Positions 50,608 through 64,000 of a stretch of DNA of 64,000 nucleotides are shown piece by piece. Numbering within the stretch: the first letter of the stretch is position 1; every line of letters starts with the position of its first letter. The notes below the pieces were generated by a model. The model searched no databases, was not told where the DNA came from, and was given only the letters and a program-made list of their open reading frames with translations. The stretch spans positions 496,001-560,000 of the forward strand of contig NZ_JAPEHU010000002.1 of assembly GCF_028823635.1 (NCBI RefSeq). The letters are read 5' to 3'. The DNA is from Demequina sp. B12. GTDB lineage: Bacteria > Actinomycetota > Actinomycetes > Actinomycetales > Demequinaceae. A program made the position numbers and the translations under genes.

Positions 50608-51582
50608 ATGGATATTTTGCTCGACGCGACCACAGCAGTGTTCGCTCCCGCGACCGCCGCTTTTGCTCTAGCCGCCATTGGCCTGAACTTCCACTTTGGA
50701 CTGACGGGGCTCCTCAACATGGGCCACGCAGGCTTCATGCTGCTCGGCATGTATGGCTATGCCATCTCCACGTCACGCGGTGCACCCATCTGGCTTGCTT
50801 TGATCGTCGCAATCGCGGCGGCCACTGTCTTTGGCCTGCTCTTGGGATGGCCGACGCTCAAGTTACGCGGCGACTACCTCGCCATCGCCACCATTTCCGC
50901 CGCAGAACTCGTCCGCTACCTTGGTCGGTCCAACTCTCTCCAAGGGCTCACGGGCGGATCCACCGGAATCCGAGGCTCCGACTTCAAGTTCACCTTCGAA
51001 GAGCTGAGCCCGTTGCCCAACGAGAACATCACGATCCTCTTCTGGACCAACCACGGTTCGCTGTCGTCGAGTTGGTGGCTACATATCGTGGCCTGGTCCG
51101 CCGTGGCATTGTTTGCGCTCCTGTTTTGGCAGTTGGCGCGCAGCCCTTGGGGCCGTGTGCTGAAGGGCATCCGTGAGGACGAGGACGCGGTCCGCGCACT
51201 CGGCAAGAACGTGTACTCCTACAAGATGCAGGCCCTCGTCCTGGGCGGTGTGATTGGCGCCATTGGCGGTGTGCTGTGGTCACTTGGAGCCTCGGTCCAA
51301 CCGGACTCCATGGGACGTCCCACAACATTCTGGCTCTGGACCATCCTGCTCCTCGGTGGCGCCGCAACAGTATTCGGCCCGGTGCTGGGTTCGATGCTCT
51401 TCTGGATGTCGCTCGTTGTCATCAAGGGTCTTGCGTCCACCTTCATTCCGTCGAGCGTGCTCTCGCCAGTCGAGATCGAACCGTTCTCACTGGTGCTTGT
51501 GGGAATCACGCTGATGGTGCTCGTGGTGTTCCGGCCACAAGGAGTACTCGGAAACAAGAGGGAGTTGGCTTTCAATGACTGA
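50608..51582 (+). CDS. livM: branched-chain amino acid ABC transporter permease LivM
   Basis: Second permease (324 residues, about eight membrane segments). GLNFHFGLTGLLNMGHAGFMLLG at the N-terminus is the family signature, and SPWGRVLKGIREDEDAVRALG is the cytoplasmic loop that contacts the ATPases. The ATG at 50608 lies 2 bp after the livH stop with AGGGTGG upstream. It overlaps livG by 8 bp. Confidence 0.93.
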   Translation: MDILLDATTAVFAPATAAFALAAIGLNFHFGLTGLLNMGHAGFMLLGMYGYAISTSRGAPIWLALIVAIAAATVFGLLLGWPTLKLRGDYLAIATISAAELVRYLGRSNSLQGLTGGSTGIRGSDFKFTFEELSPLPNENITILFWTNHGSLSSSWWLHIVAWSAVALFALLFWQLARSPWGRVLKGIREDEDAVRALGKNVYSYKMQALVLGGVIGAIGGVLWSLGASVQPDSMGRPTTFWLWTILLLGGAATVFGPVLGSMLFWMSLVVIKGLASTFIPSSVLSPVEIEPFSLVLVGITLMVLVVFRPQGVLGNKRELAFND

Positions 51583-52414
51583 GGTTTTCGCAGAGGTCGC
51601 GCACGAACCAGGGGCTGCCAAGCAGGACCCCATCGTGATCGCGGATCACGTGCACCGTCACTTTGGCGGTTTGACCGCGGTGGACGTTGAGCACTTCGAG
51701 GTGCAACGCAACGCTATTACCGCGTTGATTGGACCGAACGGTGCCGGAAAGTCCACGTTCTTCAACCTCCTCACCGGGTTCGATAGGCCCCAACGCGGCG
51801 AGTGGCAGTTCAATGGCCACTCCCTCGTGGGAACGTCTCCGGCGAAGATCGCTCGCGCAGGGAAGGTACGTACCTTCCAGCTCACCAAAGCCCTCAATCG
51901 CATGACCGTCATGGAGAACATGCGACTGGGAGCAGCTGAACAGGGCGGCGAGAACTTCTTCAAGGCGCTTGTGCCCGGGCTTTGGAAGGCCCGTGAACAA
52001 GAGATCACAGAGAAAGCTCATGTTCTCCTTCACCGCTTCAAACTGTATGAGAAGAAGGACGACTACGCCGGGTCGCTCTCTGGCGGGCAACGAAAGCTAC
52101 TCGAGATGGCCCGCGCCCTGATGTCGGACCCCGAGATGATCATGCTTGATGAGCCCATGGCAGGAGTAAACCCAGCGCTCACCGAGTCTCTGCTCGACCA
52201 CGTCGTTGAGCTCAAGAACGAAGGCAAGACCATCTTGTTTGTCGAGCACGACATGCACATGGTGCGGAGGATCTCCGACTGGGTTGTTGTCATGGCAGAG
52301 GGACGCATCATCGCTGAGGGGCCGCCTCAGACGGTGATGGCCAATCCTGCGGTACAAGATGCATACCTCGGTGCGCATCACGACAGCGACCTCTCCGAGG
52401 AGGACCCCTCATGA
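51575..52414 (+). CDS. livG: branched-chain amino acid ABC transporter ATPase LivG
   Basis: ATP-binding subunit (279 residues) with Walker A LIGPNGAGKSTFF, signature LSGGQRKLLEMARAL, Walker B MIMLDEPMAGVNP and the H-loop VEHDMHMV. MAGVNP following Walker B is typical of LivG. It ends in an acidic tail, and its stop overlaps the livF ATG (ATGA). Confidence 0.95.
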   Translation: MTEVFAEVAHEPGAAKQDPIVIADHVHRHFGGLTAVDVEHFEVQRNAITALIGPNGAGKSTFFNLLTGFDRPQRGEWQFNGHSLVGTSPAKIARAGKVRTFQLTKALNRMTVMENMRLGAAEQGGENFFKALVPGLWKAREQEITEKAHVLLHRFKLYEKKDDYAGSLSGGQRKLLEMARALMSDPEMIMLDEPMAGVNPALTESLLDHVVELKNEGKTILFVEHDMHMVRRISDWVVVMAEGRIIAEGPPQTVMANPAVQDAYLGAHHDSDLSEEDPS

Positions 52415-53139
52415 CCGACGCACCCGTCATCGTCGACGCCGACGACCTTTACGCCGGCTATCTGCCGGGCATCGACATCCTCAACGGCTGCTCGATGAGG
52501 GTCCAAGAAGGCGAACTCATCGGCATCATTGGCCCCAATGGCGCCGGCAAGTCCACCTTCCTCAAGGCCTTGTTCGGCTTGGTGCCGATCCGCTCGGGTT
52601 CCGTCACCTTGGGTGACGAGGACATCACTAACATGCGAGCCGATGAGCTGGTCAAGCGTGGCATCGGGTTCGTTCCTCAGACCAACAACGTGTTCCCCTC
52701 GTTGACTGTGCTGGAGAACCTCGAGATGGGCACCTACCAGCGCCCCAAGGCCTTCAAAGCACAATGGGAGCGCATCGGTGAACTCTTCCCCAAACTCGTG
52801 GACAGGCGAGATCAGCGCGCGGGTTCACTGTCTGGCGGCGAACGCCAAATGGTGGCGATGGCGCGTGCCCTCATGATGGACCCCAAGGTCCTGCTCCTTG
52901 ACGAGCCGTCCGCTGGCCTATCTCCGGACCGCCAGGATGAGACCTTCGTGCGTACGAGGGAAATCAACCGTACAGGTGTCACGGTGATCATGGTGGAGCA
53001 GAACGCCCGACGTTGTCTGCAGATCTGTGATCGCGGATACGTCCTCGACCAGGGCACGACTGCCTACACGGCATCAGGCCAGGAGCTTCTCAAGGACCCC
53101 AAGGTGATCGAGCTTTACCTCGGAACTTTGGGAGCATAA
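52411..53139 (+). CDS. livF: branched-chain amino acid ABC transporter ATPase LivF
   Basis: Second ATP-binding subunit (242 residues) with IIGPNGAGKSTFLKA, FVPQTNNVFPSLTVLENLEMG, LSGGERQMVAMARAL, LLLDEPSAGLSP and VEQNARRCL. The VEQN H-loop variant is characteristic of LivF. Last gene of the operon, followed by a strong terminator. The solute-binding gene livJ lies downstream on the opposite strand. Confidence 0.95.
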   Translation: MTDAPVIVDADDLYAGYLPGIDILNGCSMRVQEGELIGIIGPNGAGKSTFLKALFGLVPIRSGSVTLGDEDITNMRADELVKRGIGFVPQTNNVFPSLTVLENLEMGTYQRPKAFKAQWERIGELFPKLVDRRDQRAGSLSGGERQMVAMARALMMDPKVLLLDEPSAGLSPDRQDETFVRTREINRTGVTVIMVEQNARRCLQICDRGYVLDQGTTAYTASGQELLKDPKVIELYLGTLGA

Positions 53140-53158
53140 CAACCCGCCTGACGCATAG

Positions 53159-53195
53159 AGAGAGGGCCCCAGCAGTGTGCTGGGGCCCTCTCTTT
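53159..53195 (+). terminator. terminator of the liv operon
   Basis: A perfect 16-bp stem (AGAGAGGGCCCCAGCA and its complement), loop GTG, followed by TT. Confidence 0.85.
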
Positions 53196-53469
53196 GTGCG
53201 TCTCCTCCCCCGAAGCGCACCTCCCCTCGCATCCCCGGTCCAAGGCGCTAGACGCCTCCCTACAGTGAGCGATGCGTTCCACCCGGGTGATCGCCGGAAG
53301 GTCGTCTGCGCGTCCAGCCGCATCGGGGCGTCCGTGCACTCGTGTCGTCACACCTGAGGGCCGCCGGCCACGGGGTGGGCCTGCGTGTTGCGCTCGTCTG
53401 CCGGAGACCGCCATCACTCGGCCGGTGTCGTCTCGATGAAGGTCCCCAGCTCCAAGTCTGCGCACGCAA
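53196..53469. other. gene-free region between convergent livF and livJ terminators
   Basis: About 270 bp between two terminators. I see no open frame with a ribosome site or recognisable domain; the only structure is a small hairpin, AGGCG-CTAGA-CGCCT, near 53244-53258. It is probably spacer or a decayed remnant. Confidence 0.5.
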
Positions 53470-53499
53470 AGAGGGCCCCGGCTAGCGCCGAGGCCCTCT
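53470..53499 (-). terminator. livJ terminator
   Basis: On the minus strand AGAGGGCC-U-CGGC, loop GCTA, GCCG-G-GGCCCTCT, then TTTGCG; one G-U pair. It begins 21 bp after the livJ stop. Confidence 0.75.
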
Positions 53500-53519
53500 C
53501 TACTGGAACGTGGTGACTA

Positions 53520-54797
53520 TCAGGAGGTAGGAACCTCACCAAACACTTCAGACACCCAGTTCTGAACGTTGTCGCCGTCGTAGGAGTACACGCCTACGTA
53601 AGCGGCGGAGGGGTCGTTCTGCTCATTGAACGGTCCCACTCCCGAGACAGGCTGGTAGTTGATCTCTTCGCCTGCCTCAAGCAGTTCCGCGCACTCGGCA
53701 AAGCCGGAGCACTCGGTACCGTCGGTTGCTCCCGAAACAGCGGCCATCGAGCCCTGGATCGAAGGACCATCGGTAGCACCCGCATGTACTGCGGCGAGTG
53801 CGATCAGCATCGCTGCGTCGTACGACTCAGGGCCGTAGGCATACGAGTCGAGCGCCTCGTCCGCGACACCGTTGAGGCGTTCCTTGAACTCATCCGATGC
53901 GTTGGCGCCCGGAATAGTGCCCTGTGCACCTTCGATTGCGCCCGGATCGAAGTCACCGGAGTAGTCCGCCGTGTTGCCATCCGTCATGTAGAGGTTGGCG
54001 GGGTCCAAGTCAGCCGCAAGCAGTTCAGGAATGATCTGCTTGGTCTGGTCGAACGCGATCAGGACGAGAGCATCGAAGTCGGTCGCCATGACGGCTTCAA
54101 CTTCTGCTGAGAAGTTGGTAGCCGCCGGGTCAAACTCTTCACCCGGGTTTCCATACGTGATGGTGCCACCAGCTTCTTCGATTGTCGCCTGGATGACGTC
54201 GCGCAATCCCGTTCCATAGTCTTCGTTGAACACGAGGATGCCGACGTTTTCGTGCCCATCGTCGAGAATCAGGTTGGCGAGCGCGTTGCCCTGCACGGAG
54301 TCCGGCGGCGCAGTACGGAAGAAGTAGGGGTCGTAGCCGGACAGCGAAGTCGCAGTGTTGGCCGGAGATACCTGGACCACCTGAGCCGCGGCAACATCGT
54401 CCACAAAGTTCAGCGTGACTGCAGACGAGGCCGCACCAATAATCGCCGAAACCCCGTCAGAGATGAGGTCCGCTGCAGACTGCGGTGCAATGTTGGCCTG
54501 CTGGGTGTCCGAGGAGTCCTCGTGGATCGCCTCAACGGGGTTTCCGAGGACTCCGCCAGCTTCGTTGATCTCCTGTACCGCGAGATTGACGCCAGCGACC
54601 TCAGGAGGCCCCAAGAACGCGAGTGAGCCTGTCAAAGGCAAGACCGTACCGATCTTGAGAGCGTCAGTTGACCCGCCTTCGGAGCCTGCGGAAGTGGTGC
54701 CTTCCGACTCGCTGCCATCCGATGAGCAGGCGGCCAGGGCGATCGACGCGGCTGCCAGTACGGCGCCACCGCGTGCGATGGTGTTCCATCGTGCCAT
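53520..54797 (-). CDS. livJ: branched-chain amino acid ABC transporter substrate-binding lipoprotein
   Basis: Extracytoplasmic solute-binding protein (425 residues, type I periplasmic-binding fold) that delivers substrate to LivHMGF. The signal peptide ends in the lipobox IALAACSSD with the modified cysteine near residue 24, followed by a Ser/Gly/Glu-rich linker. KIGTVLPLTGSLAFLGPPEVAGVNLAVQEINEAGGVLG is the family's opening block. The ATG at 54797 has GGAGGGAA 8 nt upstream. It is a separate, convergent transcription unit, allowing the binding protein to be made in excess. Confidence 0.93.
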   Translation of the reverse strand: MARWNTIARGGAVLAAASIALAACSSDGSESEGTTSAGSEGGSTDALKIGTVLPLTGSLAFLGPPEVAGVNLAVQEINEAGGVLGNPVEAIHEDSSDTQQANIAPQSAADLISDGVSAIIGAASSAVTLNFVDDVAAAQVVQVSPANTATSLSGYDPYFFRTAPPDSVQGNALANLILDDGHENVGILVFNEDYGTGLRDVIQATIEEAGGTITYGNPGEEFDPAATNFSAEVEAVMATDFDALVLIAFDQTKQIIPELLAADLDPANLYMTDGNTADYSGDFDPGAIEGAQGTIPGANASDEFKERLNGVADEALDSYAYGPESYDAAMLIALAAVHAGATDGPSIQGSMAAVSGATDGTECSGFAECAELLEAGEEINYQPVSGVGPFNEQNDPSAAYVGVYSYDGDNVQNWVSEVFGEVPTS

Positions 54798-54886
54798 TGT
54801 GTGTTCCCTCCACACTGACCGAGGCGAGCCTCCGTCAGCCCATTGCCCCAAGGACGGTCCCTGGCGGCAATATGTTCACGCTACCG

Positions 54887-54914
54887 AAAATAGATTTCGC
54901 GGAAAGTACAACAA
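54887..54914 (-). promoter_or_regulatory. possible promoter and operator of livJ
   Basis: On the minus strand TTGTTG (54909-54914), a 16-bp spacer and TATTTT (54887-54892). An inverted repeat CGAAA-ATAGA-TTTCG (54885-54899) covers the -10 box and could be an operator. The leader would be about 80 nt. Confidence 0.35.
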
Positions 54915-54964
54915 CGTCACGATTCCGTGACCTGCGCCCGGGCAACGCGGACCCGAGAACGCAA

Positions 54965-54996
54965 GTCGGGCAGCCACGTTCACCGTGACTGCCCGA
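54965..54996 (-). terminator. pdtaR terminator
   Basis: GTCGGGCAG and CACG arms pair with CGTG and CTGCCCGAC around a short loop, with one mismatch or wobble. It follows the pdtaR stop by 27 bp. Confidence 0.6.
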
Positions 54997-55023
54997 CGAG
55001 AAAACTCGAAAAACGAGGGAGGT

Positions 55024-55656
55024 TTACTTCCCTGACATCTGCTCAATCACGGCCTCGGCGACCTCGCGCATCGTCAAGCGGCGGTCCATGGACGTCTTCT
55101 GGATCCAGCGGAAAGACTCAGGCTCGTTGAGCTTCATCTTCTCCATCAGAAGGCCCTTCGCGCGCTCCACCTTCTTACGGGTCTCCATCCGCTCGTTGAT
55201 GTCGGCGATTTCCGACTCGAGCGCGCGAATCTCCGCGAAGCGCGACGCGGCAATCTCCACTGCGGGCAACAAGTCTGCGGGAGTAAACGGCTTCACCACG
55301 TATGCCATGGCACCAGCGTCACGTGCGCGCTCGACCAACTCCGTCTGGGAGAAAGCCGTCAGCAGCACCACGGGAGCCACGCGCTCTGCCGCAATCTGCT
55401 CAGCTGCGGTAATTCCATCCATGACAGGCATCTTGATATCCATGACGACAACGTCAGGCTTGTGTTCCTTGGCGAGCGCGACGCCTTCTTCACCGTTAGC
55501 CCCCTCGCCTACCACGTCGTATCCACCCTCACGGAGGGTCTCTACGATGTCCATGCGGATGAGCGCTTCATCCTCCGCAACAACGGCCCGACGCTTCTTC
55601 GTCGCAGGCACTTCTGCGGGTGCTTTTTCCTGAGGTGTGTCATCAACGTTCGTCAC
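55024..55656 (-). CDS. pdtaR: ANTAR-domain response regulator PdtaR
   Basis: Cytosolic response regulator acting on RNA: the receiver domain (about 22-140) has phosphoacceptor Asp73 in VVVMDIKMPVMDG and Lys122 in YVVKPFTP; the C-terminal ANTAR domain (about 150-205) contains RKKVERAKGLLMEKMKLNEPESF. ANTAR proteins bind paired hexaloop RNA hairpins to prevent transcription termination; in mycobacteria PdtaS is the kinase. No kinase gene is adjacent here. GTG at 55656 is 7 nt from a TAGGCT -10 box, so the mRNA is likely leaderless. Confidence 0.94.
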   Translation of the reverse strand: MTNVDDTPQEKAPAEVPATKKRRAVVAEDEALIRMDIVETLREGGYDVVGEGANGEEGVALAKEHKPDVVVMDIKMPVMDGITAAEQIAAERVAPVVLLTAFSQTELVERARDAGAMAYVVKPFTPADLLPAVEIAASRFAEIRALESEIADINERMETRKKVERAKGLLMEKMKLNEPESFRWIQKTSMDRRLTMREVAEAVIEQMSGK

Positions 55657-55663
55657 AGGCGCT

Positions 55664-55669
55664 AGCCTA
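55664..55669 (-). promoter_or_regulatory. -10 box of pdtaR (leaderless)
   Basis: TAGGCT on the minus strand, seven bases before the GTG at 55656. Its upstream end shares two bases with the plus-strand -10 box of the tRNA gene, and any -35 must lie inside the tRNA gene. Confidence 0.55.
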
Positions 55670-55673
55670 GTCT
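55668..55673 (+). promoter_or_regulatory. -10 box of the tRNA gene
   Basis: TAGTCT, six bases (CCTAGG) before the first base of the tRNA. Transcription could therefore start at the mature 5' end. It interlocks with the divergent pdtaR -10 box. Confidence 0.45.
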
Positions 55674-55679
55674 CCTAGG

Positions 55680-55753
55680 GCCCCGATAGCCCAACTGGCA
55701 GAGGCATACGGCTCAAACCCGTACCAGTGTGGGTTCGAATCCCACTCGGGGCA
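55680..55753 (+). tRNA. tRNA-Leu (anticodon CAA) with short variable loop
   Basis: Complete cloverleaf: acceptor stem GCCCCGA/TCGGGGC (7 bp), D arm, anticodon stem TACGG/CCGTA with loop CTCAAAC (anticodon CAA at 55714-55716, reading UUG), T arm GTGGG/CCCAC with loop TTCGAAT, discriminator A. No CCA is encoded. The variable region is only 5 nt (CCAGT), as in class I tRNAs, whereas bacterial tRNA-Leu normally has a long variable arm. Leucine identity is therefore inferred from the anticodon and the A discriminator only. Confidence 0.93.
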
Positions 55754-55758
55754 CGAAT

Positions 55759-55795
55759 CGGGCGTGACGATGCGCAAAGCGCCTCGTCACGCCCG
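55759..55795 (+). terminator. terminator of the tRNA gene
   Basis: CGGGCGTGACGA pairs perfectly with TCGTCACGCCCG, with an inner GCGC/GCGC stem, beginning 6 nt after the tRNA. No T-run. Confidence 0.55.
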
Positions 55796-55825
55796 TAACG
55801 CCTACCCCCCTTGGAGGACGTAGAC

Positions 55826-56296
55826 ATGGTTGATGCCGAACGTACCCCTGCAGCCGCGAAACATATCGCGCTCGTCGCCCACGACAACAAGAAGTCAGAG
55901 CTTCTTGAGTGGGCAAAGTTCAACAAGGGCTCCTTGTCTCGCCACCACCTCTACGCGACCGGGACCACAGGGTCCATGCTTGAGGACGTACTTGACCTTC
56001 CTGTGACACGATTCCTGTCGGGGCCCATCGGGGGTGACCAACAGATCGGTGCTCGAATCGCAGAGGGCAAGATCGATTTGCTCGTGTTCTTCTGGGACCC
56101 GCTCGAGGCTCAGCCTCACGACCCCGATGTCAAAGCCCTGCTGAGGCTAGGCTGCGTGTGGAACATTCCCATGGCGAGCAACGTTGCCACCGCCGACTTC
56201 CTGATCTCCTCTCCCCTGTTCCGCGAGACCTACCAGCGCACGGCGCCAGTCTTGGGTCCCCGCGACTGGACCACGCTCGGTACGCAGGAGTCTTAA
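55826..56296 (+). CDS. mgsA: methylglyoxal synthase
   Basis: Converts dihydroxyacetone phosphate to methylglyoxal and phosphate, bypassing lower glycolysis under phosphate limitation or sugar-phosphate overload. The 156-residue protein keeps the catalytic residues at E. coli numbering: His19 and Lys23 in VAHDNKK, Asp71 in GPIGGDQQ, His98 and Asp101 in [20 protein letters not shown] is the phosphate-binding loop. The ATG at 55826 has GGAGG 8 nt upstream; TTG at 55811 would precede that site. It is a separate unit between the tRNA and convergent pyk. Confidence 0.95.
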
Positions 56297-56474
56297 CCGC
56301 ACGCTCTTCCTGCACGGCAGGTCCCACGTACTCACGGGTCTCTATGCGGCCTGCCCAGATGCGGCAACAAGCCCCGCCATGGCCTCATATTCCCTGTACT
56401 CGGCGCTGCAGTTCATCAACCCCAGCGTGACCCGCGATATGGACCACCCAGGCTTGTGGGGCCTTCAGACAACA

Positions 56475-56514
56475 AAAAGCGCGGGCCCCGCACCGTGAGG
56501 TGAGGAGCCCGCGC
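56475..56514 (-). terminator. pyk terminator
   Basis: On the minus strand GCGCGGGC and GCCCGCGC enclose an inner CACC/GGTG stem and are followed by TTTTTG, a classical intrinsic terminator starting 18 bp after the pyk stop. Confidence 0.9.
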
Positions 56515-56532
56515 CGCAGGTATGAACGGAAC

Positions 56533-57954
56533 TTATCCGCGAACCTGACCGACCTTGTGGACGAAGATCGAGTTCGTCGTTCCAGCAGTTCCGACGGGAG
56601 TACCCGACACGACCACGACGTAATCGCCGTCGACAGCCTTGCCGGACTCCTTCAGATAGCCGTCAACGAGGTTCACCATCTCGTCAGTAGTCTCAACGCG
56701 GTCCACCAACTCAGCATCCACGCCCCAGCTCAGCGCGAGACGCTTCTGCGTCTTGGGCTCGGGGGTGAAGGCCAGCATCGGGACGCTCGGGCGCAGGCGA
56801 GCCATACGCACGGCAGAGTCGCCGGACTGGGTAAACGTCACGATGTACTTGATGTCGAGCGCATCAGCGATCTCAGCCGCAGCGTGGGTCACCGCGCCAC
56901 CGCGAGTCTTGGGCGTCGTCAAGAAGGGTGCGATACGGCTGTACCCCTTCTCTTCCGTGTTGCGCACGATGCGAGCCATCGTCTCGACAGTAACGATCGG
57001 GAAGTCACCCACCGAGGTCTCACCGGAGAGCATCACAGCATCGGTGCCATCAAGGATCGCGTTGGCGCAGTCCGACGTTTCCGCACGGGTAGGAACCGGC
57101 GAGTGAGTCATCGACTCAAGCACCTGCGTAGCGACGATCACGGGCTTGGCGTTCGCACGGCACAGTTCGATGGCGCGCTTCTGGACCAGCGGAACCTCTT
57201 CGAGCGGAAGCTCCACACCAAGGTCACCACGAGCGACCATGATGCCGTCGAAGGCGTCGACGATCTCTTCAAGGTTGTCGACGGCCTGCGGCTTCTCCAC
57301 CTTGGCAACGACGGGAACCGTAATGCCCTCCTCGGCCATGATGCGAGCGACGTCTTCGTAGTCGGCGGCATTGCGCACGAACGACAACGCGATGAAGTCT
57401 GCACCAATCTTCAGGCCCCAACGCAGGTCGTCCTCGTCCTTCTCGGACAGCGCGGGAACAGACACCGAAACGCCAGGCAAGTTGATGCCCTTGTTGTTCG
57501 ACACCGGGCCGGGCACGACGCACTTGGTGATGACATCGGTCTCGGTGACGTCGGTCACCTCGAGCCGGACCTTGCCATCGTCGATGAGGAGCGTGTCGCC
57601 AGGCGAGCAGTCGCCTGGCAGGCCCTTGAAGGTCGTGCCACAGATGTCCTTGGTGCCTTCCACGTCACGAGTGGTGATCGTGAAGACATCACCGATAGCG
57701 AGCTCGTGTGGTCCGTTGGCGAACTTCTCCAGACGGATCTTGGGGCCCTGCAGGTCAACCAGGACGGCCACGTTGCGACCCGACTCCTCAGCTGCCTGAC
57801 GAACGTTGTTGTACACCGCCTCGTGCTCTTCAGTGCTGCCGTGCGATCGGTTGATACGAGCGACGTCCATGCCCGCATTCACCAACTCACGCATGCGCTC
57901 CAGGGGCGCCGTTGCCGGGCCGATCGTGCAGACAATCTTTGCTTTACGCGACAT
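56533..57954 (-). CDS. pyk: pyruvate kinase
   Basis: Transfers phosphate from phosphoenolpyruvate to ADP. The 473-residue protein has KIVCTIGPATA at the N-terminus, RINRSHGS, the active-site VVAKVEKPQAVDNL and MVARGDLGVELP with the Mg-binding Glu/Asp, and the C-terminal allosteric domain ending in TNSIFVHKVG. The ATG at 57954 has GAGG about 10 nt upstream. It lies 22 bp after gltD on the same strand, so gltB-gltD-pyk may be one transcript. Confidence 0.96.
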   Translation of the reverse strand: MSRKAKIVCTIGPATAPLERMRELVNAGMDVARINRSHGSTEEHEAVYNNVRQAAEESGRNVAVLVDLQGPKIRLEKFANGPHELAIGDVFTITTRDVEGTKDICGTTFKGLPGDCSPGDTLLIDDGKVRLEVTDVTETDVITKCVVPGPVSNNKGINLPGVSVSVPALSEKDEDDLRWGLKIGADFIALSFVRNAADYEDVARIMAEEGITVPVVAKVEKPQAVDNLEEIVDAFDGIMVARGDLGVELPLEEVPLVQKRAIELCRANAKPVIVATQVLESMTHSPVPTRAETSDCANAILDGTDAVMLSGETSVGDFPIVTVETMARIVRNTEEKGYSRIAPFLTTPKTRGGAVTHAAAEIADALDIKYIVTFTQSGDSAVRMARLRPSVPMLAFTPEPKTQKRLALSWGVDAELVDRVETTDEMVNLVDGYLKESGKAVDGDYVVVVSGTPVGTAGTTNSIFVHKVGQVRG

Positions 57955-57976
57955 CTCTCGTTTTCCTCAGATCTCT

Positions 57977-59443
57977 CTACGCACGGAGCGCAACCGTGCT
58001 GGCTGTCACAGGTGCCGGCAGCTCGGTGCTACCGGTCAGGTACTCATCGATCGCAGCGGCGGCCGCACGGCCCTCCGCGATGGCCCACACCACGAGGGAC
58101 GCGCCGCGCCCGGCATCGCCGGCCACAAACACGCCATCCGCAGAGGTGTGGAAGTCGTCCGCGCGCTCAATGCGCCCGCGGTCGGTGACGGCAACGCCGC
58201 CCTGTGTTGTCAAACTTTCCGTCTCTGGTCCCGTGAAGCCCATAGCAATCAGCACCAGATCCGCGGGAATGTCCCGCTCGGTGCCGGCCATCGGAGTCCG
58301 TGAACCATCGGCGTTGTACTGAGTCTCAGCGACACGCAATGCCGTGACGTTCCCTGCGTCGTTGCCGATGAACTCGACGGTCGACGCGAGGAACTGGCGG
58401 GTGCCACCTTCTTCATGACTCGACGATACTTCGAATACCCGGGGATCCGTAGGCCAAGGGTCATGGTCTGGCCTAGAAACTGGCGGTTTTTTGCCGATCG
58501 CGAGGGTCGTCACCGATGCGGCCTTCTGACGGAGCGCGGTGCCGATGCAGTCGGAGCCAGTGTCGCCGCCACCGATCACGATGACGTGTTTGCCCTCGGC
58601 ATGAATCTGGTCCTCGACGGCGTCACCGGCTGCAGCTTGGTTGCCCTGGTGGAGGTACTCCATCGCGAAGTGAACTCCACCCAACGCACGGCCCGGCAGG
58701 GGCAGTTCACGCGGCAGGGGCGCACCAGTGGCGACAAGCACGGCGTCGTAGCGGGCACGCAAGTCGTCCCACGTGACGTCCTTGCCGATCTCGACGTCAG
58801 TGCGGAAGCGCGTGCCCTCGGCCTCCATCTGCTCGATCCGCCGATCGATGTGAATCTTCTCAAGCTTGAAGTCCGGAACTCCGTACCGCATCAAACCGCC
58901 GATGCGGTCATCCTTCTCGTAGACACGGACCGTGTGGCCTGCGCGCGTGAGCTGTTGCGCCGCTGCCAAACCTGCGGGACCGGATCCGACCACCGCAATG
59001 GTCTTGCCGGTCTGACGCTGCGGAATGTGAGGCTCGACATAGCCTTCCTTGAACGCCTTGTCGATGATCTCTGCTTCGATGCTCTTGATCGTGACCGCAG
59101 GCTGGTTGATACCCAACACGCAGGACGTTTCGCAAGGAGCCGGGCAGATGCGTCCGGTGAAGTCCGGGAAGTTGTTCGTAGCGTGGAGACGCTCGATTGC
59201 GTCCTCCCACTGTCCCTGACGCACCAGGTCATTCCACTCGGGAATGATGTTGCCCAAGGGGCAACCTTGGTGACAGAACGGAACTCCGCAGTCCATGCAA
59301 CGTGTCGCCTGTCGACGCAACGTCGGTTCGTCCTTCGTGAGCTCGTCCTTCACGTCCTTCCAGTCAAGGAGTCGGATCGGGACGGGGCGGTTCTGAGGAA
59401 CCTCACGCTCACGGTACTTCAGGAAGCCTTGGGGGTCAGCCAC
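57977..59443 (-). CDS. gltD: glutamate synthase, small (beta) subunit
   Basis: FAD/NADPH subunit that passes electrons to GltB. The 488-residue protein has an N-terminal iron-sulfur cysteine cluster ([16 protein letters not shown] and CPAPCETSC), an FAD fold [15 protein letters not shown] and an NADPH fold [13 protein letters not shown], ending with [20 protein letters not shown] at 59443 overlaps the gltB stop by 8 bp, indicating coupled synthesis. Confidence 0.96.
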
Positions 59444-62400
59444 CGGTTACCTCCAGGAATTCGGCCCAAGCACCCGGAGCGCGCAGATCGCCTCCTGTTG
59501 CTTCAAGCTCTGCGAGTGCCTCACGCACGCGTGCGTACTGTGCCGGTAGCACGCGCGTGAAGCGGTCCTTGTTCTCATCCCACTTGGCAAGAAGTTCCTT
59601 GCCCCGCGGGGATTCCGTCTCTGCGACATGCCGTTCCAACAGGGTGCGCACGATGGTCTCGTCTTCAGCGTCCAGCGGGCTGAGGGTGAGTTCCCCCGCC
59701 GCCAGCGCATCGGCGTTCACACGTTCTACCTTCAAATCAAGGATGTACGCGGTACCACCAGACATACCAGCACCGAGGTTGCGGCCCGTGCGGCCCAGAA
59801 TCAGCGCCGTGCCGCCCGTCATGTACTCCAGTGCGTGGTCTCCCACTCCTGCCACCACTGCGGTGGCGCCGGAGTTGCGCACCAAGAAGCGTTCGCCTAC
59901 CTGGCCACGAAGGAAGATCTCGCCTGAGGTCGCACCGTAACCAATAACGTTGCCGGCAATGACGTCCTTGGAGTCGTCCAGCATCGCTTCGCGGGCGGGC
60001 CGGACGACGATGCGTCCTCCGGAAAGTCCCTTGCCCACGTAGTCGTTCGCGTCGCCCTGCAAGCGCAACGTGATGCCTCGCGGCACAAACGCACCAAAGG
60101 ACTGACCTGCGGAGCCCTGGAAGTTGACGGAGATCGTGTCGTCTTCCAGGCCTGCACCGCGATAGCGGCGCGTGACTTCGTAACCCAGCATGGTGCCGAC
60201 CGTGCGGTTCACGTTGCGGATCGGCATATCGATCTGCACTGCTTCCCCACGCTCCAAGGCGGGTGACGCAGCGGCAATGAGCTCCTGGTCAAGCGCCACG
60301 TCCAACGAGTGGTCCTGCACTGTGGCGTTGCTCAACGCTCGTCCCGGTTCGGGACGCGCCAGGACTGGCGTCAAGTCCAGCCCCTTGGCCTTCCAGTGAT
60401 CGATTGCTTCTCGAGTGTCGAGCGCCTCGACGTGCCCGACGGCCTCAGCGATCGAACGGAATCCGAGCTGCGCGAGCAGTTCACGTACCTGCTCGGCGAT
60501 GAACTCGAAGAAGTTCACGACGTGCTCGGCCTTGCCGGTGAAGCGCTCTCGCAACTCTGGGTTCTGCGTAGCGACACCCACCGGGCAGGTGTTCAGGTGG
60601 CATACGCGCATCATGATGCAGCCCTCGACCACCAACGGCGCGGTCGCGAAGCCGAACTCTTCTGCTCCGAGCAGTGCGCCGATGACGACGTCACGTCCCG
60701 TCTTCATCTGTCCGTCGACCTGAACCACGACGCGGTCACGCAAGTCGTTCAGCACCAGGGTCTGCTGGGTATCGGCCAACCCAATCTCCCACGGCGCACC
60801 CGCGTGCTTGAGGGAGTTGAGAGGACTTGCCCCAGTTCCGCCGTCCTGGCCGGAGATGAGGACCACGTCCGACTTGCACTTCGCCACGCCTGCAGCGATC
60901 GTGCCAACGCCGATTTCCGACACCAGCTTGGTGTGAATACGAGCTTGCGGGTTGGCGTTCTTGAGATCGTGGATCAGTTGCTTGAGATCCTCGATCGAGT
61001 AAATGTCGTGGTGAGGCGGCGGGGAAATCAGCCCCACACCAGGAGTGGAGTGTCGTGTCTCCGCGACCCAGGGGTAGACCTTGGAGCCCGGGAGCTGACC
61101 ACCCTCACCAGGCTTGGCGCCCTGCGCCAGCTTGATCTGGATGTCATCAGAGTTCACGAGGTACTCGCTCGTCACGCCAAAGCGGCCGGATGCCACCTGC
61201 TTGATCGCCGAACGACGCTCGGGATCGTACAGGCGCTCCACGGACTCGCCACCTTCACCGGTATTCGACTTACCGCCGAGTCGGTTCATCGCGATGGCCA
61301 GTGTCTCGTGCGCTTCTTCGGAGATCGACCCATAGGACATTGCACCGGTCGAGAAACGCTTGACGATCTCGGAAATGGGCTCGACCTCATCCAAGGCAAC
61401 CGGCTCACGGTCAGACGCGAACTCGAACAGGCCACGCAAGGTCATCAGGCGCTTCGCCTGGTTGTCCACGCGGTCGGTGTACTGCCGGAAGACGTCGTAC
61501 TTCCGCTCGCGGGTAGCGTGCTGAAGTTTGAAGATCGTCTCAGGGTCGAACAAGTGCTCTTCACCGTCACGTCGCCACTGATACTCACCACCGGTGTTCA
61601 GGCGGCGGTGCGCAGGCAACTCACCTGACGCGGGGTACGCATCGGCATGGCGCAGCGCAACCTCACGAGCGATGACGTCCAGGCCCACGCCATCGACCTG
61701 GCTGGGGGTGCCGACGAAGTGACGGTCGACGAACTCACGGGACAACCCGATGGCTTCGAAAACCTGGGCGCCGCGGTACGACTGAATCGTCGAGATACCC
61801 ATCTTCGACATGATCTTCAGCACACCCTTGCCGAGTGCCTTGATGAAGTTCTTGACGGCCTTCTCTGAAGCCATGTCGCCCAGGAAACCACGAGCTGCCA
61901 GGTCCTCGATGGTCTCCATAGCCAGGTACGGGTTCACTGCGGCGCAACCATAGCCCACGAGAAGAGCGACGTGGTGAACTTCACGCACATCTCCGGCCTC
62001 CACGACAAGCGATGCCCGAGTGCGAGAGTGGTTGCGCACCAAGTGATGGTGCACGGCCGATGTCAGCAGGAGCGACGGGATCGGTGCAAAGTCCTGGTTG
62101 CCGTCGCGGTCGGACAGGACGATGAATGAGACGCCTTCCTTGATGGCCTGATCGACCTCGTCAAAGATGTCATCGAGGCGGCGCTGCAGCCCCTCTTCGC
62201 CGTCTTGAACGCGGTAGAGACCACGGATCTTGCGCGCTGAGAAGACGCCCTTCAGGCGCGGGTCAGCATCGATGTGGAGGATCTTCGCCAGTTCATCGTT
62301 GTCGATGACGGGGAACTCCAACATGATCTTGCGAGCGTGTTCCGCCGTGGTGTCCAGCAGGTTTGGCTCGGGACCGATCGCGCCGCCGATGGCGGTCACG

Positions 62401-63971
62401 ATCTCTTCACGGATGGCATCCAGCGGCGGGTTCGTGACCTGCGCGAACATCTGTGTGAAGTAGTCGAACAGCAAACGGGGGCGATCCGACAACACCGCAA
62501 TGGGGGTGTCGGAGCCCATCGCACCGATCGGCTCTGCACCGTTGAGGGCCATCGGGGTCAGAAGCTTCTTCAGCTCCTCTTCCGTGTAACCAAAGGCGCG
62601 CTGACGACGCTTGACCGACGCCTGTGAGTGCACAATGTGCTCTCGATCCGGGACCTCAGACAAGCGCACGGCGTTGTCGCGCACCCACTGCTCGTAGGGG
62701 TGTTCCGAAGCAAGACGGGTCTTAATTTCTTCGTCTTCAATGATGCGCCCAGCAGCGGTGTCTACCAGGAACATGCGGCCTGGCTGCAGGCGTCCCTTGC
62801 GGACGACCTTGGCGGGATCGATGTCAAGGAGACCGGCTTCCGATCCGGCCACCACCAAGCCTTCATCCGTCACCCAGAAACGACCTGGACGGAGACCGTT
62901 GCGGTCGAGCGTGGCACCGATCACCGTGCCGTCGGTGAAGTGAAGGGCAGCGGGACCGTCCCACGGTTCCATGAGCGCCGAGTGGTACTCGTAGAAGGAC
63001 CGCCGTGCGGGGTCCATCTCGGAGTTGTTCTGCCAGGCCTCAGGCATCATCATGAGCACGGCATGCGGCAGCGACCGGCCGGCGAGGTGCAGGAGCTCCA
63101 AAACCTCATCGAAAGAGGCGGTGTCGGAGGCCGAGGCGGAACACACTGGCATCAGGTCCGCGACTTCCCCGAGTACCTCGGAGCGCAGGGTGCCTTCGCG
63201 TGCGGTCATCCAGTTGCGGTTGCCCTGCACGGTGTTGATCTCACCGTTGTGCGCGATTCCGCGCAGCGGCTGTGCGAGTGGCCAGGACGGGAAAGTGTTG
63301 GTCGAGAAGCGCGAGTGTACGAGCGCAAGCTCAGACGCATACAGCTCATGGGTCAGATCAGGAAACACCTGCTCCAACTGATAGGTCGTGAGCATCCCCT
63401 TGTAGGTGAGCGTTCGGCTCGACAGGGAGGCAAAGAACGGACCACCATTGTTCTCTGCACGCTTACGGACCCGGTAGACACGGCGGTCAAGCGCAATGCC
63501 CGACAGTCCGTCGACGGCGACGAACACCTGACGGAAGGTTGGCATCGCCTCACGTGCCGACGGTCCGAGCGGATCGCCAACGGCTGGAACATCGCGCCAA
63601 CCCAGGACCGTCACGCCCTCAAGGGCGGCCGCACTCTCAAAGGCTGAAACCTCAGTCGACTCGGAACCCGGAGTCAAGAAGGCGATGCCGACGGCGTACT
63701 CGCCCTTCTCGGGAAGGTCAAAGTCGACGACAGCACGAAGGAAGGCGTCCGGCACCTGAGTCAGGATGCCCGCGCCGTCGCCTGTCTCCGTCTCTGCACC
63801 AACCGCGCCGCGGTGCTCCAAGTTCTTCAGAGCCGTCAGCCCAGCCTCGACAATGTCGCGACCAGGCGTGCCTCGTAGGGTCGCTACAAAAGCGACACCA
63901 CACGCATCGTGCTCGTACGCGGGGTTATACAGCCCTTGCGCGGGCTGGGAAGCGCCAGTGAGCGCAGCCAT
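59436..63971 (-). CDS. gltB: glutamate synthase, large (alpha) subunit
   Basis: Makes two glutamates from glutamine and 2-oxoglutarate. The 1511-residue protein has an N-terminal class II amidotransferase domain whose catalytic Cys24 (HDACGVAF) is exposed after removal of a 23-residue propeptide; a central domain; an FMN domain with [18 protein letters not shown]; 3Fe-4S cysteines in [15 protein letters not shown]; and a C-terminal glutamate-synthase beta-helix with many GG repeats. The ATG at 63971 has AAGGA 7 nt upstream; the GTG immediately before it (63974) is also in frame. The promoter lies outside the window. Confidence 0.97.
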
Positions 63972-64000
63972 CACACCGTCCTTGCTTTTCCCGGGAATGA

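Follow-up and report, generated by a model that had tools for sequence, protein, structure and literature searches.

The window, by which we mean the whole stretch of 64,000 nucleotides from Demequina sp. B12 analysed here, contains a single tRNA gene, which ARAGORN identifies as tRNA-Leu(caa) at 55680-55754 on the plus strand and which matches the Rfam tRNA family over 55680-55753 (57.5 bits against a gathering score of 29, E 8.8e-10), so that it qualifies as a tRNA cloverleaf. The gene and its surroundings comprise the following features:

55024..55656, minus strand: pdtaR-like response regulator with an ANTAR domain, the divergent neighbour that marks the locus (Pfam Response_reg and ANTAR)
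55680..55753, plus strand: tRNA-Leu(CAA), 74 nt, class-I shape (ARAGORN; Rfam RF00005)
55689..55705, plus strand: D arm, with a 3-bp stem (G10-C25, C11-G24, C12-G23), the mismatch C13·A22, and A14, A15, G18G19, A20a and G21
55714..55716, plus strand: anticodon CAA, which reads UUG (ARAGORN)
55724..55728, plus strand: 5-nt variable loop CCAGT, whose last base, U48, is the presumed partner of A15 (Levitt pair)
55753..55753, plus strand: discriminator A73, followed by CGA, CCA not being encoded
55759..55795, plus strand: strong hairpin just 3' of the tRNA, 12 + 4 bp, likely a terminator without a T run
55811..56296, plus strand: methylglyoxal synthase, the downstream neighbour (NCBIfam NF003559, 212 bits)

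Our results agree with the first-pass annotation of this DNA in that the gene is a 74-nt tRNA-Leu(CAA) with a 5-nt variable loop and A73. The same annotation considered the cloverleaf intact in every stem; the acceptor, anticodon and T stems are indeed fully paired, but C13·A22 is a mismatch that leaves the D stem with 3 bp, and this one stem is thus incomplete. While the anticodon is that of leucine, the variable loop falls within the 4–5 nt of class-I (type I) tRNAs and does not reach the 10 nt or more of a class-II (type II) arm, and a class-I shape on a leucine anticodon is, as had been pointed out, atypical by the textbook rule.

The name pdtaR is taken from the earlier annotation; the best named match of the window protein is from Demequina sediminicola (91%). 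The segment 55680-55810, which spans the tRNA and the hairpin, folds at -64 kcal/mol against a mean of -42.4 for shuffled sequences (z -5.56), and a strong hairpin 3' of the tRNA is present in some, not all, of six Demequina-type loci. A promoter scan found no sigma-70-like promoter upstream of the tRNA gene.

The tRNA set and the LeuRS of the genome

The genome (2.33 Mb, 99.98% complete) gives 45 Rfam tRNA matches, 44 of which are resolved by ARAGORN. Five are tRNA-Leu, with variable regions of 5 nt (CAA), 5 nt (UAA), 13 nt (UAG), 15 nt (CAG) and 17 nt (GAG), and the four tRNA-Ser and the one tRNA-Tyr keep their long arms. Neither the Rfam matches nor ARAGORN reveal a tRNA with a long arm that would read UUA or UUG. 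We considered and rejected a long CAA copy that had escaped notice, there being none among the genome's tRNA matches or by the long-CAA pattern; the listing of all tRNA-Leu genes thus bears out that the short gene has no normal counterpart. One LeuRS scores 940 bits, above the family cut-off of 548, and it has the editing and anticodon-binding domains.

A separate observation concerns tRNA-Cys, for which the genome gives a single match (locus L036; G000:C21:367578-367688, minus strand). This match is 111 nt long and repeats about 40 nt internally, across the anticodon arm and a portion of the T arm. In two genomes of the same genus (G412 and G414) two tRNA-Cys copies lie some 550–650 bases apart, so the long match is likely to reflect either an assembly error or a tandem pair that has collapsed or recombined.

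One locus with two arm lengths

The locus was compared in relatives by way of pdtaR, as the first-pass annotation had proposed. Searching named genomes by pdtaR gave 80 loci, of which 78 have tRNA-Leu(CAA) beside this gene, 31 of them in the short form and 47 in the long one. The short form lies beside pdtaR in, for example, Demequina, Cellulomonas, Cellulosimicrobium, Isoptericola, Actinotalea, Georgenia, Timonella, Sanguibacter, Actinomyces and a Bifidobacteriaceae bin, and the long form in Arthrobacter and relatives, Kocuria, Brevibacterium, Brachybacterium, Rhodoluna, Ruania, Flaviflexus and Myceligenerans, among others. Two loci (L092 and L095) show no tRNA-Leu(CAA) near pdtaR within the stretch examined: the first is a contig of Cellulomonas sp. 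RIT-PI-Y with pdtaR present and no such tRNA within 5 kb, and in the second pdtaR starts at base 156 of the contig end. Twenty further loci of the class were chosen around the CAA tRNA itself (13 short, two of these of the second type described below, and 7 long), and pdtaR is near in 19; the one miss begins at a contig end.

Where both genes are present (97 loci), they lie 15–1510 bases apart, and in 89 of these loci they are divergent. Of the eight loci with both on the same strand, six (L105, L115, L118, L121, L124 and L150) hold long tRNAs within mostly short clades, which points to gene replacement at these loci rather than to regrowth of the arm. On a pdtaR tree of 98 rows arm length must have changed 12 times or more, and well supported branches force four of these changes, although this tree is weakly resolved, with long branches flagged, and serves as a rough guide only. 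It includes locus L123, on a contig titled Vibrio cholerae strain 35D that carries an Arthrobacter-like pdtaR and a tRNA-Leu(CAA); this contig is plainly actinobacterial and probably a contamination.

The tertiary core covaries with the arm

Identical sequences enter the tRNA trees and pair counts once, and any tRNA whose positions could not be numbered was omitted from them, uncounted. C12-G23, C13·A22, A14, A20a, G21 and A73 are present in all 73 distinct short sequences, and A9 in 72. The full signature, with A15 and U48, is found in 71; of the two that break it, one has G15-C48 and the other A15·C48. The 45 long sequences, in contrast, all have G9 and G12-C23, with G13·A22 in 42 and A13·A22 in 3. 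Arm length therefore goes with three core positions. In the short set, D-stem pairs 10-25 and 11-24 each occur as four pair types and are paired in 73/73 sequences, a covariation expected of a working RNA.

A second short type was found in family f27 (4 loci, 3 distinct sequences; the labels of the second-type loci are L171-L174, L221 and L222). It has A13·A22, A21 and the loops TGTGT, TGTTT or TGCCT, and the two loci that were checked both lie at the same pdtaR locus. This type may represent an independent loss of the arm.

These data bear on whether the gene could be decayed or silenced, or encode a regulatory tRNA-like RNA with no decoding role, a reading for which its atypical shape had counted. 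Against it, the gene is the only CAA tRNA of an almost complete genome, it is kept at one locus across the class, and its stems show compensatory changes; we consider this reading extremely improbable and have rejected both pseudogene and regulatory RNA. An origin from tRNA-Met, as in human Leu-CAA-5-1, was likewise rejected, since the window tRNA has a leucine core and not a Met body: the closest tRNA-Met of the genome agrees at 39/65 positions, below tRNA-Leu, Asn, Arg, Thr and Lys.

Distribution across the actinobacteria

A strict pattern for short UUA/UUG tRNAs is found in 169 of 296 genomes of the class (65 of 115 genera), and among the matches listed the reversed pattern, used as a control, gave none, so the short form is present more often than chance would give. 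The strict long-CAA pattern is found in 42 of the 296. With looser patterns in 98 genomes of the class, CAA is short in 57 and long in 20, UAA is short in 34 and long in 18, and no genome has both forms of either; these counts come from exact patterns that miss variants, neither CAA form being detected in 21/98 genomes and neither UAA form in 46/98. The reversed control matched once in this survey (G082). Both isoacceptors could be resolved in 42 genomes: both are short in 23, only CAA in 10, only UAA in 7, and both are long in 2.

The short pattern extends to 35 of 119 genomes sampled across the phylum, 109 of which are outside the class. Judged from the sequences, 24 of these 109 have tRNA-like short matches; the matches in G351, G314, G300 and G298 look like chance, and the reversed control matched once (G335). 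Similar DNA is also carried by phages: 118 phage records, many of them actinophages, matched at E 1e-3, and most of the 15 matching records listed have a tRNA-Leu annotation.

The first-pass annotation had suggested that the short tRNA might be a conserved actinobacterial isoacceptor, which both the pdtaR loci and the class survey confirm, and had named as a refutation of its identity problem that the short form be the standard across the group, which as to distribution is what we find. Since the short form is common across the actinobacteria, the long-arm rule fails for that group.

UUG is conserved as leucine

UUG accounts for 62 of the 325 leucine codons in eight genes of the window. In the same genes (51575-63974, 3800 codons) UUA does not occur, although a tRNA-Leu(UAA) gene is present. 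We compared the window genes, column by column and leaving out L123, with genomes that have a long CAA tRNA. Leucine is the majority residue at 26/31 UUG columns, and UUG is thus a codon conserved as leucine; the other leucine codons give 38/50 (CUG), 33/41 (CUC) and 11/16 (CUU), and the control codons 5/37 (AUG), 2/74 (GUG) and 4/38 (UUC). Leucine is as frequent at UUG columns as at CUN columns, which argues that UUG is read as leucine. Judged by these alignments, the genetic code looks unchanged, UUG most likely being plain leucine.

The same comparison bears on charging or co-charging of the tRNA by another synthetase, for example PheRS, with UUG partly ambiguous. PheRS reads A35A36 and A73, and the window tRNA shares both with tRNA-Phe, together with the class-I shape. 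Phenylalanine, however, is the majority at 0/31 of the UUG columns, the genome's own tRNA-Phe differs (G15-C48, no 20a, A21), and ambiguity would be costly with UUG making up almost a fifth of the leucine codons. We therefore give this explanation only a slight chance. The suggestion that UUG is partly ambiguous finds no support, and ambiguity or reassignment of the codon is rejected by the codon columns.

Discussion

In this work we have followed up a tRNA gene that joins a leucine anticodon to a class-I body. We are confident, short of certainty, that it is the ordinary and sole UUG tRNA of its genome and is charged by LeuRS through A73 and the elbow, its expression, charging and tertiary contacts being predicted. 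The passages of PMC9976931 that deal with E. coli give as LeuRS determinants A73, the A15-U48 Levitt pair, G18G19 and A20a, find the sequence and folding of the long arm uncorrelated with leucylation, and report that tRNA-Leu variants without the anticodon arm and the long arm remain active. A73, A14, A15-U48, G18G19 and A20a are all in the window tRNA, these being E. coli rules that may not hold for an actinobacterial LeuRS. In the Demequina genome, A15, U48, A20a, G21 and A73 occur jointly in 5/5 tRNA-Leu and in 0/39 other tRNAs. The single LeuRS would thus recognise the short tRNA by A73 and the elbow (A14, the A15-U48 Levitt pair, G18G19 and A20a); no elbow contact would need the long arm, and the enzyme would charge the short tRNA with leucine. 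The determinants kept, the UUG columns that are leucine and the one ordinary LeuRS together make LeuRS most likely the enzyme that charges it. The identity problem raised in the first-pass annotation, that LeuRS usually relies on the overall shape plus A73, is accordingly not supported, the long arm being no determinant in E. coli and the reported determinants being present, and a non-canonical role is not needed.

Some results count against this explanation. The short UAA tRNA of the genome agrees with its own tRNA-Arg(UCU) at 51/65 positions and with the short CAA tRNA at 50/65, and the acceptor stem of the window tRNA is identical to that of tRNA-Thr(GGU) (14/14). Similarity over the whole body thus fails to single out tRNA-Leu. 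The negative outcome of the promoter scan counts on the same side.

Our hypothesis is that a single isoacceptor, encoded at one conserved locus, can be built in two ways, short or long, and that the short version relies on a different tertiary core (A9, C12-G23, C13·A22). How the short form arose is a matter on which the data point both ways. It could descend from a class-I tRNA, Arg- or Asn-like, by a change of anticodon and a one-base insertion in the D loop, and not by loss of a class-II arm; a tRNA recruited in this manner would still work as a leucine tRNA. The likeness of the short UAA tRNA to tRNA-Arg(UCU), which includes 13/14 acceptor bases, and the presence in the short form of T8 A9, as in most class-I tRNAs of the genome, favour such a descent. 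The D arm, on the other hand, equals that of class-II tRNA-Leu at the determinant positions, and we regard recruitment as a tentative proposal, with somewhat less than an even chance. The tRNA trees, too short to decide, reject neither one short clade (p-AU 0.91 and 0.64) nor one CAA clade (0.64 and 0.12).

On a broader scale, we lean slightly towards the view that the Actinomycetota have a phylum-wide and unrecognised class-I tRNA-Leu(UUR) subfamily with its own tertiary core, which has been swapped with the long form on several occasions at a single orthologous locus and has two or more origins (one for the main type, with C13·A22, and one for the A13·A22/A21 type of f27). If this is true, tRNA class is an evolvable switch and not a fixed property of an isotype, and UUR and CUN leucine tRNAs in genomes like that of Demequina would be told apart by shape.

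The class-II rule for bacterial tRNA-Leu fails in much of the actinobacteria, including, by gene length, M. tuberculosis. The passages concerned of a 2023 review of tRNA identity have tRNA-Leu long-armed everywhere except in animal mitochondria, and a tRNA-seq tool, in the part of PMC6297222 that bears on this, lists bacterial Leu with a type of 13–22 nt; tools built around a long arm may flag short tRNA-Leu or assign them wrongly. Having two builds at one orthologous gene provides a natural experiment in which LeuRS, modification enzymes and tRNA-targeting toxins meet their substrate with and without the arm. In the open-licence literature, with most subscription journals outside the search, we found no paper that treats class-I tRNA-Leu as an actinobacterial trait. 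The pattern seems unremarked in the literature covered, though the facts sit in annotated genomes, and tRNA-Leu(CAA) would be ordinary in function while being in form an apparently unremarked structural variant, widespread in Actinomycetota.

How does this tRNA compare with known systems? In M. tuberculosis, Table 1 of PMC9336784 tabulates the Leu_CAA and Leu_TAA genes at 74 bp, so leuV and leuX resemble the window gene in length and, with CAA and UAA, in anticodon; they are recorded with no remark on a missing arm in the passages of that paper that concern them. The same passages describe tRNA-Leu(CAA) as a MiaA substrate in vitro, and a printed RNase T1 fragment is part of the anticodon arm of the tRNA at our locus L188. 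M. tuberculosis tRNA-Leu-2, 3 and 5 are said to have a long loop in the relevant part of PMC11541572. A tRNA-Leu(TAG) in a Mycobacterium tRNA cluster also has a short variable loop and a leucine anticodon, but, according to the section of PMC6582537 that describes it, it is an extra clustered copy with a normal long copy elsewhere. Human Leu-CAA-5-1 places a CAA anticodon on a short-armed body (PMC8450103, in the passages on this gene); it is a recent tRNA-Met derivative of low expression, whereas the window tRNA is a conserved sole isoacceptor. Human mitochondrial tRNA-Leu(UUR) is charged without a long arm, with A73 and A14 as determinants, in the account given in part of PMC9976931; it belongs to an organelle and its transcript has a floppy anticodon branch, whereas ours is a well paired cloverleaf of free-living bacteria. 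With the bacterial class-II tRNA-Leu the short form shares the anticodon, A73, A14, A15-U48, G18G19, A20a, G21, A22 and the locus beside pdtaR, and it differs in lacking the 12–17 nt arm and in having A9, C12-G23 and C13·A22 in place of G9, G12-C23 and G13·A22 or A13·A22.
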